Shown here piece after piece: positions 45,602-49,554 of a DNA stretch of 64,000 nt. The notes under the pieces are model-generated. The model did not search any database, was not told the origin of the DNA, and saw only the letters and a list, made by a program, of their open reading frames with translations. The translations under genes and the position numbers were made by a program. This stretch comes from Myxococcales bacterium (GTDB lineage: Bacteria; Myxococcota; Myxococcia; Myxococcales; Myxococcaceae). Where the stretch lies: NCBI GenBank assembly GCA_020846875.1, contig JADLDB010000086.1, positions 62,001 through 126,000 on the forward strand, in the 5' to 3' direction. Every line of letters starts with the position of its first letter. Within the stretch, counting starts at the first letter, position 1.

Positions 45602-46219
45602 ATGTCCCGCATCCCGCTGCGCCCCCAGCCCGTCGGTGAAGCGCTCTACCGGCTCGAGGCCCCGCCCGACTGGACGGCGGTGTTCGGCTTCGACGGCCCG
45701 CTGGAGCTGGAGATCGGCTGCGGCGCCGGCGGCTTCGCGCTCGAGTACTGCCGGCGCAACCCGCAGGTGCGGTACGTGGCCTTCGAGTGGCGGAAGAAAT
45801 TCGCCCGCGAGGTGCAGCACCGCGCCGACAAGCACGGGATCAAGAACCTCAGGGTGATCGAAGGGGACGCGCGCTTCGCAGTGCCGCGGCTGTTCGCGGA
45901 AGGCAGCCTGGACCAGCTCCACCTCCAGTTTCCCGATCCCTGGTGGAAGCGCGCGCACCAGAAGCGCGCCATCCTCCAGCCCGACTTCGCCGCCTTCCTC
46001 CGCACGCGCCTCAAGGCCACCGGCCGCTTCGACTTCCGCACCGACGTGGAGGAGCGCGCGCGGCAGGGCCTGGCGGTGCTGGAGGAGGCAGGCTTCGTCA
46101 ACCCCTTGGGCCCGGGCGCCTTCCACCCCTTCGATCCCGACGAGGTGCCGTCCACCCGCGAGCGCCGCTACCTGGTGACGGGCCAGCCGGTGTTCCGCGC
46201 GCGCCTCCAGAAGCGCTGA
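45602..46219 (+). CDS. trmB: tRNA (guanine-N7)-methyltransferase
   Basis: TrmB, 205 aa, methylates G46 of tRNA with S-adenosylmethionine. SAM motif I is LELEIGCGAGGFALEY, followed by YVAFEWRKKFAREVQ, and the family signature LHLQFPDPWWKRAHQKRA. The C-terminal STRERRYLVTGQPVFR is also typical. Complete. The next gene starts 48 bases later. Confidence 0.93.
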   Translation: MSRIPLRPQPVGEALYRLEAPPDWTAVFGFDGPLELEIGCGAGGFALEYCRRNPQVRYVAFEWRKKFAREVQHRADKHGIKNLRVIEGDARFAVPRLFAEGSLDQLHLQFPDPWWKRAHQKRAILQPDFAAFLRTRLKATGRFDFRTDVEERARQGLAVLEEAGFVNPLGPGAFHPFDPDEVPSTRERRYLVTGQPVFRARLQKR

Positions 46220-46267: not shown

Positions 46268-47311
46268 ATGCCGGCGCCCCGCCGAAAGACCCTGGAAGCG
46301 ACCCGCCGCCAGGACGAGCCCGCGGTCCGCCTTTGGGGCCGCACCCTGCTGATCGCCGACGACGATCGCGCGGTGCTCTCGCAGATCCGCGCCGGGCTGG
46401 AGGGCTTCGGCTACGCCTTCGTCGAGGCCCACGACGGCACCGAGGTGCTGACCGCCCTGCGCAAGGCCCAGCCGGACCTGCTCCTGATGGACGTGGAGAT
46501 GCCCGGCCTGGGCGGCGTGGAGATCACCCGCATCGTCAAGGCGAACCAGAGCACCAGCGGCTTCGGCTTCATCCCGGTGATCCTGATGACCGCCCGGCGC
46601 ACCACGGGGAAGGTGGAGGGCCTGGAGCTGGGCGCGGACGACTACCTGACCAAGCCCTTCGACATGCTGGAGCTCGCCGCGCGCGTCCGATCGATGCTGC
46701 GCCTCAAGGCCCTGCAGGACGCGCTGGTGGACAAGAACAAGGAGCTCGACCGCGCCAACAAGGAGCTGGAGGAGAAGCGCCAGGAGCTGCTCCTGCTGTC
46801 GCGCACCGACGGCCTCACCCAGCTGATCAACCGGCGCCACTTCGAGGAGCGCCTGGCCGCCGAGTTCGCCCGCGCGGCGCGCTACCGCGCTCCGCTCTCG
46901 TGCTTCCTGCTGGACATCGATCACTTCAAGAAGGTCAACGACACCTGGGGCCACCCCTTCGGCGACGTGGTGCTCAAGGAAGTTGCCGGCGTGGCGCGGC
47001 GGGCGCTGCGCGACGTGGACGTGCTGGCCCGCTACGGCGGCGAGGAGCTGATCGCGCTGTTGCCCGAGACGACCCCCGAGGAGGCGTGGCGCGCGGCCGA
47101 GCGGGTGCGGCTAGGCGTGGAGGCGATGCGCCTCACCAACCGCTCCAGGCCCGAGCCGGCGGTGGTGCGCTGCACGGCGTCGATCGGCGTCGCCACCTTC
47201 CCCGGCGAGGGGATCGACACCGCCGAGACCCTGGTGCAGGCCGCGGACGAGTGCCTGTACGTCGCCAAGCAGAGCGGCAGGAACCAGGTGCGGCAGTCCG
47301 GAGAGGCCTGA
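46268..47311 (+). CDS. Response regulator diguanylate cyclase (REC-GGDEF)
   Basis: Protein of 347 aa. Receiver domain (about 25-145) with acidic DDD at 31-33, Asp75 (LLLMDVEMPG) and Lys129 (LTKPFD), then a coiled-coil linker (150-178) and a GGDEF domain. The active site is GGEEL (257-261), with Leu replacing the usual Phe, and the inhibitory I-site RDVD (248-251) is intact, so it should make c-di-GMP under product inhibition. No cognate kinase is adjacent. PilB in this window has a c-di-GMP-binding-type domain, a possible link. Confidence 0.88.
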   Translation: MPAPRRKTLEATRRQDEPAVRLWGRTLLIADDDRAVLSQIRAGLEGFGYAFVEAHDGTEVLTALRKAQPDLLLMDVEMPGLGGVEITRIVKANQSTSGFGFIPVILMTARRTTGKVEGLELGADDYLTKPFDMLELAARVRSMLRLKALQDALVDKNKELDRANKELEEKRQELLLLSRTDGLTQLINRRHFEERLAAEFARAARYRAPLSCFLLDIDHFKKVNDTWGHPFGDVVLKEVAGVARRALRDVDVLARYGGEELIALLPETTPEEAWRAAERVRLGVEAMRLTNRSRPEPAVVRCTASIGVATFPGEGIDTAETLVQAADECLYVAKQSGRNQVRQSGEA

Positions 47312-47380: not shown

Positions 47381-47788
47381 ATGCGCCCCGTCTCCCTTTT
47401 CCTCACCGGGCTGCTCCTGCTGGCCTGTCAGTCGCCGCCGGCCAACACGCCCCAGGCCGCCTACCAGGCCTTCGCCCTGGCGCTCCGGAAGGGGGACACC
47501 CGCAGCGCCTACGCGTCGCTGTCCAGGCCCACCCGCGACGCAGTCGAGGCGCGCTCGAAGGCGCTGGTGGCCGCCTCCCAGGGCCTCATCAAGGACGAGC
47601 CGGCGCTGATGCTCTTCCAGTCCGGCACCCGCCCTGCGCCCTTGGGCGAGGTCAAGGTGGTGGAGGAAACTCCTTCCACGGCGGTGTTGGACGTGGCGGG
47701 CACCCGGGTGAAGATGATCAAAGAGGACGGCGGCAGGTGGGTGGTAGATCTCACCGACCTGTACACGAGGAACCAGGGGACCCCGTGA
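47381..47788 (+). CDS. Small lipoprotein, NTF2-like fold suspected
   Basis: Protein of 135 aa with lipobox LLLAC (Cys16). The mature part resembles SnoaL/DUF4878-type small lipoproteins: a helix AAYQAFALALRKGDTRSAYASLS, where the pattern is 'residues moving through a pore-sized helix then beta sheet', and a C-terminal strand GGRWVVDLTDLY. Role unknown. Its stop overlaps the start of the LSm-like gene (GTGA), so the two are co-translated. Confidence 0.65.
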   Translation: MRPVSLFLTGLLLLACQSPPANTPQAAYQAFALALRKGDTRSAYASLSRPTRDAVEARSKALVAASQGLIKDEPALMLFQSGTRPAPLGEVKVVEETPSTAVLDVAGTRVKMIKEDGGRWVVDLTDLYTRNQGTP

Positions 47789-48768
47789 GCGATCGCTTGA
47801 AGAAACCAGGGCCGCAGATCGAAGTCATTCGCCGGCCGGCGCAGGCCGCTTCCACGGTGAAGCCCACCCAGCCGGCCCCCGCGCCCAGGCCCGTGGCGCC
47901 GCGCACCGCCACCCCCGCCCAGCCCCGTCCGGCGTCTCCACACCCCTCCGGCCCGCGCCCGGCACCCGCAGGCGCGCGCCCGGCCGGAGGCAAGCCCCCG
48001 TTTCGTGCGCCGCGGGGCCCGCCGCGGCCTCCGCCCACCGCCGAGCAGATCGTCGCGCTGGCGAAGAAGGAGCGCGTCCCCAACCGGATCGCCAAGGGTG
48101 AGCTCGAAGGGAAGATGAAGTGCCGGATCTGGAAGAAGCTGCACGCCGAGGAGGCCAGGCGCTTCGACCAGGCCTTCAACGTCATGGAGGCGAACCCGGG
48201 CCTCGAGCTGGCCGACGCCTTCGGCGTGGTGCAGAGCGGGCTGCCGGTGGCCGACTTCGTGGCCCGCCGCGCCCGCGCGAAGAAGCGGGAGGAGGTCAAG
48301 GCCGCCCGCGCCACGGTGGCCGGAGCGACGGTGGACGAGCTGGTGGCCGGCTGGCAGACGCAGAAGGCCGAGCTGGCGGTGGTGATGGGCGAGCGCACCG
48401 CGCTGGACGTGATCGCCGAGATCCAGCCCGTGGCCTTCGTGCTGGAGCGCGCCGGCCGGGTGGAGAAGCTGAACGTGGTGGTGATCGCCCGCAAGGCCAC
48501 CTGGGACGCCCACCTCCCCACCGTGACTCGGGATCCGAAGCTGTCGCAGAAGCCCGCCGCGGTGGCCCGGCAACCGGCGCGCCGCCCGGTGAACGATCCC
48601 CGCACCTTCCTCGATTTCGTCGGGCAGCGGCTCACCTTCAACCTGCGCAACGGCATTACCGTCACCGAGGCGCTGCTGGCGGTCGGGCCGTTCGACGTGC
48701 TCCTCGGCGAGCCGGGCGAAGAGCTCTTCGTCCCGCTGCACGCCATGCTGAGCTGGTCCGCCGCCTGA
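47785..48768 (+). CDS. Pro-rich protein with C-terminal Hfq/LSm-like domain
   Basis: Protein of 327 aa starting at GTG, with AGGGGA upstream and a GTGA overlap with the lipoprotein gene. Residues 20-85 are Pro/Ala/Arg-rich and basic, 85-250 are mixed helical with many Lys/Arg. Residues 274-324 resemble Hfq: FVGQRLTFNLRNGITVTEAL matches the Sm1 pattern (hydrophobic-x-NG), FDVLLGEPGEELFVPLHAML matches Sm2 including the position of the conserved His before the last strand. RNA binding is the obvious inference. It could instead be an unrelated small beta-barrel. No known name. Confidence 0.6.
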   Translation: MSDRLKKPGPQIEVIRRPAQAASTVKPTQPAPAPRPVAPRTATPAQPRPASPHPSGPRPAPAGARPAGGKPPFRAPRGPPRPPPTAEQIVALAKKERVPNRIAKGELEGKMKCRIWKKLHAEEARRFDQAFNVMEANPGLELADAFGVVQSGLPVADFVARRARAKKREEVKAARATVAGATVDELVAGWQTQKAELAVVMGERTALDVIAEIQPVAFVLERAGRVEKLNVVVIARKATWDAHLPTVTRDPKLSQKPAAVARQPARRPVNDPRTFLDFVGQRLTFNLRNGITVTEALLAVGPFDVLLGEPGEELFVPLHAMLSWSAA

Positions 48769-49554
48769 TCAGAGCTGGCCGCGCAGCGCGTCGAGCACGG
48801 CCAACTGGGTGCGGCTGGTGCGGTCGTCGAAGCTCAGCCGGCACAACGTCTTCACCCGGGACAGCAGGCGGTACGCGGTGGCGCGCGAGACGCCGTGGGC
48901 CTGCGCCCAGGCCTCGACGCGCTGCCCGTCCAGTTGGGCGCGCAGGAGCGACCTCTCGTCATGGGACAGCAGCCCCAGCATGCCCCTGGCGAGGCGCTGG
49001 GCGTCGAGGTGGGCGATCAGGACTGCGGGGAGCTCCCGGGTGGAGGTGGTGCGCGGATCGAAGCCCGGGTGATTCAGGTAGCGGTCGAAGAGCTCCCCGG
49101 TGGCTTCTTTCACCGTCGGGCGGCGCCCGAGCTGGGCCCACACCGCGCCCACCGCCTCCTCCACCGCGACGGCCGAGAAGCCGCTCACCCCCTCGAGGCG
49201 CGAAGGAAAGCCCGCGCGCGCCGGCCCCGACAACACCCGGAGCGCGTCGCGGACGTGGGCGGATAGGGCGTGCCAGGCCTGGTGGTTGTCGCGCTCCCCC
49301 GCCACCACCTGCCTGAAGCGGTGGCGCACGGCCCGCACCAGCTCCTCGCCGCTCATCGCCACCAGCTCCGCGCGCCGCGCGTCATGGAGCAGGTGACGCT
49401 CGAAGAAGAGCCCCACGAAGCCATCGAGCAGCACCGGATCCACCCGGCCCACGCCGGCCACCGTCTGCCTGAGCGCCTGGTAGTCCTCGTCCCCGAAGGC
49501 GCCGGACCGGTGGAAGGCCTCGATCGCCGCCAGGAGGCGCGCGCCGTCGCTCAT
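48769..49554 (-). CDS. HTH protein with sigma-factor-like C-terminus
   Basis: Protein of 261 aa, all alpha. The C-terminus LLRAQLDGQRVEAWAQAHGVSRATAYRLLSRVKTLCRL is a helix-turn-helix of the sigma-70 region 4 / LuxR-like kind; earlier helices (70-120, EELVRAVRHRFRQVVAGERDN) loosely resemble sigma region 2. No close family is recognised. Its stop touches that of the convergent LSm-like gene, and it starts 3 bases after the VWA gene, so VWA and HTH genes are an operon. Confidence 0.55.
   Translation of the reverse strand: MSDGARLLAAIEAFHRSGAFGDEDYQALRQTVAGVGRVDPVLLDGFVGLFFERHLLHDARRAELVAMSGEELVRAVRHRFRQVVAGERDNHQAWHALSAHVRDALRVLSGPARAGFPSRLEGVSGFSAVAVEEAVGAVWAQLGRRPTVKEATGELFDRYLNHPGFDPRTTSTRELPAVLIAHLDAQRLARGMLGLLSHDERSLLRAQLDGQRVEAWAQAHGVSRATAYRLLSRVKTLCRLSFDDRTSRTQLAVLDALRGQL

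Follow-up and report, generated by a model that had tools for sequence, protein, structure and literature searches.

A protein family of Myxococcaceae with a predicted Hfq-like domain at its C-terminus

In the window (the whole stretch of DNA that we analysed, 64,000 nucleotides in length) there is a gene for a protein of 327 residues, the last ~57 of which are, judging from sequence profiles and a structural model, a domain of the Sm/Hfq type. Here an Hfq-type domain forms part of a larger protein, and current family models are not sensitive enough to detect it. The explanation that we prefer, and that in our opinion is rather probable, is that the gene encodes an RNA-binding protein specific to Myxococcaceae, whose Hfq-like domain would form a ring and which would chaperone or stabilise RNA in general. 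Given that the C-terminal domain appears to be folded like Hfq and that Hfq itself is missing throughout the phylum, this protein, with its predicted RNA binding, is a good first candidate for an RNA chaperone of Myxococcaceae.

The Hfq-like domain

Searches of Pfam, NCBIfam and PDB with the 327-residue protein as a single sequence gave no meaningful match. The Pfam Hfq model (PF17209) matched nothing in the genome concerned and none of the 18 family members scanned, a Pfam scan of all members returned noise only, and the PHROG matches of family members were weak and inconsistent from one member to another. As Pfam does not recognise the protein, we call it Hfq-like and do not file it as an Hfq.

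The relationship of the C-terminal domain to the Sm/LSm/Hfq superfamily is detectable by profiles. A profile of the full-length family found three matches in PDB, all of them Hfq (best E-value 0.0023), and with a profile of the C-terminal domain seven of the eight PDB matches were Hfq, the best being the protein of M. jannaschii (3.4e-4). As a yardstick, B. subtilis Hfq used as a single query recovers the same archaeal Hfq proteins at 2.6e-4 and 0.0012, which is comparable to what the profile of our domain achieves. Comparison of the domain by hhalign with an alignment of six Hfq sequences gave a probability of 90-91% and a score of 34-35 (34.8), against maxima of 13.6 (n=100) and 19.4 (n=200) for column-shuffled controls. 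The E. coli member of that alignment matches an annotated hfq at 100% and the B. subtilis member matches PDB 3ahu over its full length; the other four sequences came from search-tool alignments.

An AlphaFold model, built as a single chain with an alignment of 18 sequences, predicts for this domain a helix at residues 273-276 and strands at 282-287, 291-300, 304-309, 312-317 and 321-326 (pLDDT 88-95), that is, the N-terminal helix and the five-stranded barrel with a long strand 2 by which the Sm/LSm/Hfq fold is recognised. The top 50 Foldseek matches are mostly Hfq and the remainder mainly eukaryotic Sm/LSm proteins and Gemin6/7, with probabilities mostly of 0.97-1.00 and TM-scores on the target of up to 0.78, the whole-chain E-values being only 0.01-0.1. 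The best rank by E-value is held by a viral protein that is poorly aligned (rmsd 13.9), and a fold search against viral structures was uninformative. An earlier note on this DNA had proposed an Sm/Hfq fold at the C-terminus, with structure prediction as the check. Sequence profiles, whether searched with or compared with one another, the predicted structure and the fold search all bear this proposal out, and the five strands are indeed predicted.

The same note had pointed to an Asn-Gly, a hydrophobic-Phe-Asp-hydrophobic stretch and a VPLHA segment near the C-terminus. These are present and conserved in our alignment, and the NG and VPLHA residues have not been lost across its 52 sequences: L287, R288, N289, G290, G301, D304, P317 and H319 are invariant in 52/52, and A320 is found in 51/52. 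In the ungapped profile alignment, N289-G290 falls on Asn28-Gly29 of Hfq, F303 on Phe42 and H319 on His57. In E. coli Hfq, whose numbering we follow, Phe42 stacks on uracil and His57 senses the RNA 3' end (PMC5379935). Among the proximal pocket residues Gln8, Phe42, Lys56 and His57, the counterparts of Phe42 and His57 are kept in the 52 sequences while those of Gln8 and Lys56 are not, hence half of the pocket is preserved. Position 56 is occupied by L318 and that of Tyr55 by P317; the Sm2 motif (Y/F)KHA of Hfq is thus replaced by (V/I)PLHA, with HA alone in common. The VPLHA segment, which the note had put in the place of YKHA, thus keeps the histidine, but not Lys56 and Tyr55. The Phe of the family's GPFD does correspond to Phe42, but the FD pair is displaced from Hfq's own FD, and consequently the Asp of the family is not the Asp of the Hfq 'FDxF'. 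Taken alone, the domain is acidic (pI 4.4), so it would be without the basic rim of Hfq, the positive charge being supplied by other regions of the protein.

The best PDB sequence match of the domain, the M. jannaschii Hfq-like protein MJ1435 (PDB 2qtx, 4x9c, 5dy9), shares with it a Gly-Lys before strand 1, the LRNG motif and the HA end; in both, the segment before strand 1 is short and no extended Hfq helix-loop is seen in the alignment. However, MJ1435 is a stand-alone chain of 71 residues with KHA, whereas here the Lys has become Leu and the domain ends a protein of 327 residues. Bacterial Hfq (PF17209; E. coli, B. subtilis, C. crescentus, Aquifex) resembles the domain in its helix and five strands, in the Asn-Gly and in the Phe42/His57 counterparts, at a mean identity of 21-27% over the domain, but its Gln8, Lys56, Tyr55 and N-terminal Arg patch are not kept and its Pfam model misses the domain. 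Moreover, Hfq stands alone as a small protein of some 70-100 residues, whereas this protein also has conserved helical and middle domains.

The remainder of the protein

The first 4 bases of the gene are shared with the preceding gene and include the stop of the latter. Relatives at 42-68% identity are encoded in 17 contigs of other assemblies (Archangium, Myxococcaceae, Cystobacterineae, Myxococcales or similar), and so we are dealing with a true gene family. Its alignment holds 52 non-redundant sequences and, being drawn from one bacterial family, is shallow. The features are collected in Table 1.

Table 1. Features of the Hfq-like gene, its product and its neighbours (positions in the window)
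Feature	Position	Strand	Basis or remark
trmB-like gene	45602..46219	+	Presumably a tRNA m7G methyltransferase; constant neighbour of the family
Response regulator-GGDEF (diguanylate cyclase) gene	46268..47311	+	Neighbour in most relatives, absent there in reduced genomes
Upstream gene, 135-aa putative lipoprotein	47381..47788	+	Weak DUF4878 match; neighbour in most relatives
Hfq-like multidomain protein gene	47785..48768	+	327 aa, GTG start; open frame and homologues
Pro/Ala-rich basic tail, residues 1-84	47785..48036	+	31% Pro, pI 12, predicted disordered
Conserved basic helical region, residues 85-178	48037..48318	+	AlphaFold and 52-sequence alignment
Middle domain, residues 179-254: helix, then six strand segments in Sm-like order	48319..48546	+	Tentative second Sm-like barrel
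Conserved basic linker QKPxxVARQPxRRPxS, residues 255-270	48547..48594	+	Alignment (n=52)
Hfq-like Sm domain, residues 271-327: short helix and five strands (predicted)	48595..48765	+	Profiles, AlphaFold, Foldseek
L287-R288-N289-G290, Sm1 'NG'	48643..48654	+	Invariant in 52 sequences; aligned with Hfq NG
F303, counterpart of E. coli Hfq uracil-stacking Phe42	48691..48693	+	F/Y in 52/52; aligned
V316-P-L-H-A320, counterpart of IYKHA	48730..48744	+	P317 and H319 invariant (n=52); aligned
261-aa protein	48769..49554	-	Weak helix-turn-helix matches; adjoins the gene in some relatives only

The whole protein is strongly basic (pI 10.7). Its tail, with a pLDDT of about 35-53 in residues 1-80, begins with a short conserved segment of the type KKPxPxVEVIRRP. 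The earlier note described the protein as having a long Pro-rich extension, but there is more to it: behind the tail and in front of the Hfq-like domain lie ~185 residues whose conservation is much like that of the domain itself (mean column identity 74% and 72%, respectively). They include a nearly invariant segment of the helical region, VPxRIAxGELxGKMKCRIWKKLH (n=52), and a linker whose pLDDT is low in residues 261-266. The helical region matched nothing in PDB or Pfam; with its GKMKCRIWKKLH segment it could be a new nucleic-acid-binding domain.

The middle domain may be a second Sm-like barrel, which would make this a tandem-Sm protein; we propose this tentatively. In the full-length AlphaFold model, residues 181-236 form a helix, strands at 197-201, 205-208, 210-213, 217-220 and 224-227, a short helical turn and a further strand at 231-236 (pLDDT about 90), and it is this Sm-fold order of elements that suggests a tandem-Sm protein. 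Folded in isolation, the domain is modelled with a pLDDT of 61 and no strands. A profile comparison of the middle domain with the C-terminal domain revealed no similarity, and its comparison with Hfq is in register with a marginal score (16.15, the shuffle maximum being 15.72). A bacterial protein with two Sm-like domains is already on record: Zymomonas mobilis and other Sphingomonadales have an Hfq-family protein of this kind, for which a three-chain ring has been proposed (PMC2877685). There, however, the comparison has its limit: in our protein only the C-terminal domain is clearly similar to Hfq, and the second is tentative.

A diverged paralogue of the protein, present in two genomes (L097, G133:C502; L098, G120:C241), has middle domain, linker and Hfq-like domain behind a different N-terminus, itself without a Pfam match, and in it LRDG replaces LRNG and VHLHA replaces VPLHA. 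That the three parts travel together in this paralogue speaks for their forming one unit. Apart from these, a short stand-alone copy of the C-terminal domain (L049:2951-3220, G073:C49) is apparently decaying (LLDGMV, VHPHAV), and a fragment in pieces with an internal stop (L099, G120:C301) is probably a remnant.

Distribution and the missing Hfq

The Hfq-like protein is found in 91 of the 93 Myxococcaceae genomes searched, as a rule in a single copy. The searches of genomes were made with the protein or profile without its Pro-rich tail: a profile of the conserved region detects the family in 45/117 Myxococcota genomes, and that of the C-terminal domain gives matches in 92/189, of which 91 belong to the same family of bacteria as the window, Myxococcaceae to judge from the titles of contigs. 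The one match outside (G042) we consider a chance result, as it is a partial match within an open frame of 2496 aa. As for the two Myxococcaceae genomes without the gene, in G149 the apparent absence is explained by a contig that stops just after the adjacent lipoprotein gene, and the other, G152, is 85% complete. Outside Myxococcota, we covered plasmid, phage and viral collections and made one single-protein scan of genome contigs; the plasmid, phage and viral-contig searches yielded no relative.

Wherever contigs reach, the order of genes is pilB-ribF-trmB-(response regulator-GGDEF)-(lipoprotein)-Hfq-like gene. Reduced Myxococcaceae genomes of 2.1-2.7 Mb retain the Hfq-like gene at this locus but show neither the GGDEF nor the lipoprotein gene beside it. 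In other families of Myxococcota, trmB has different surroundings and no relative of the Hfq-like gene is beside it. Judging from synteny, the M. xanthus orthologue should lie two genes beyond a GGDEF gene that is probably MXAN_5791.

Canonical Hfq was found in none of the 195 Myxococcota genomes (0/195), the genome concerned also being without a match, while the same search detects Hfq in five control genomes. ProQ/FinO (PF04352) matched neither in the genome concerned nor in any of 58 Myxococcota genomes. The lack of canonical Hfq, which the earlier note had put forward for M. xanthus, is thus supported here and agrees with the literature: the papers on Pxr, an sRNA of M. xanthus, report that there is no Hfq homologue and suggest another protein as a possible chaperone (PMC5684412, PMC5568312). 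Myxobacteria control multicellular development with sRNAs such as Pxr, and the gene described here, present throughout Myxococcaceae, is a concrete and testable candidate for the chaperone proposed in those papers. On the other hand, the idea of a lineage-specific replacement of Hfq does not stand as it was put. Hfq is missing from all Myxococcota searched but the Hfq-like protein is confined to one family, hence this protein did not simply take over when Hfq was lost; it may have been recruited later.

Possible functions

If the protein acts as we prefer to think, its C-terminal Sm domains would assemble into a ring, either of six such domains or of three tandem pairs should the middle domain have the Sm fold as well. 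A pocket of the ring, built from F303 and H319, would bind the 3' ends of single-stranded RNA, and the basic Pro-rich tail and the helical region would give further contact with RNA, similar to the Arg rim in Hfq. Its task would be to chaperone or stabilise RNA in general, and sRNAs such as Pxr may be among its targets. In favour of this explanation we count the Hfq matches of profiles and fold, the F/Y at 303 and the H319 in 52/52 sequences, the occurrence in 91/93 genomes, the retention in those of 2.1-2.7 Mb, the adjacency of trmB, the lack of Hfq and ProQ and the call of the Pxr papers for another chaperone; against it we count the change of Lys56 to Leu, the loss of Gln8, the acidity of the C-terminal domain and the lack of a Pfam Hfq match.

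One may also conceive that RNA is indeed bound via an Sm-like ring, but for RNA processing, tRNA or ribosome metabolism or RNA decay and not for the pairing of sRNA with mRNA. We regard this as possible, although it convinces us less. Its strength is the strict synteny with trmB and ribF together with the retention of the gene in the 2.1-2.7 Mb genomes, where its GGDEF and lipoprotein neighbours are missing, and a constant trmB neighbour and such retention do point to a housekeeping role. However, synteny alone does not establish a shared function, and this housekeeping role would need to be specific to a single family.

A bolder version of our preferred explanation would make this protein the missing sRNA chaperone of Myxococcaceae: a tandem-Sm protein that forms a three-chain ring and whose own helical and disordered parts bind RNA as well, which arose about when Pxr arose and acts with it. 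A paper on Pxr places the origin of this sRNA at the base of Cystobacterineae (PMC5568312). This version is, in our opinion, doubtful.

The Sm fold also serves roles that do not involve RNA, and Gemin6/7, which are among our Foldseek matches, are Sm folds that act mainly in protein contact. It is therefore conceivable, although we find it improbable, that the barrel serves for oligomerisation or for the docking of proteins and that the protein does not act through RNA, for example in a scaffold linked with the neighbouring c-di-GMP and pilus genes. The missing counterparts of Lys56 and Gln8 and the acidic C-terminal domain would suit such a role, and the gene is indeed close to pilB and to that of a response regulator with diguanylate cyclase domain. 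Yet it would leave unexplained why the counterparts of the stacking aromatic and of the 3'-end histidine are conserved in 52/52 sequences and why the whole protein is very basic, and the reduced genomes keep the gene without the adjacent diguanylate cyclase gene.

Finally, that the resemblance to Hfq is fortuitous and that we are looking at some other small barrel, as the lack of Pfam or NCBIfam matches for single sequences might suggest, is very improbable and largely contradicted, given that profile, profile-profile comparison, fold prediction and fold search all agree on Hfq.
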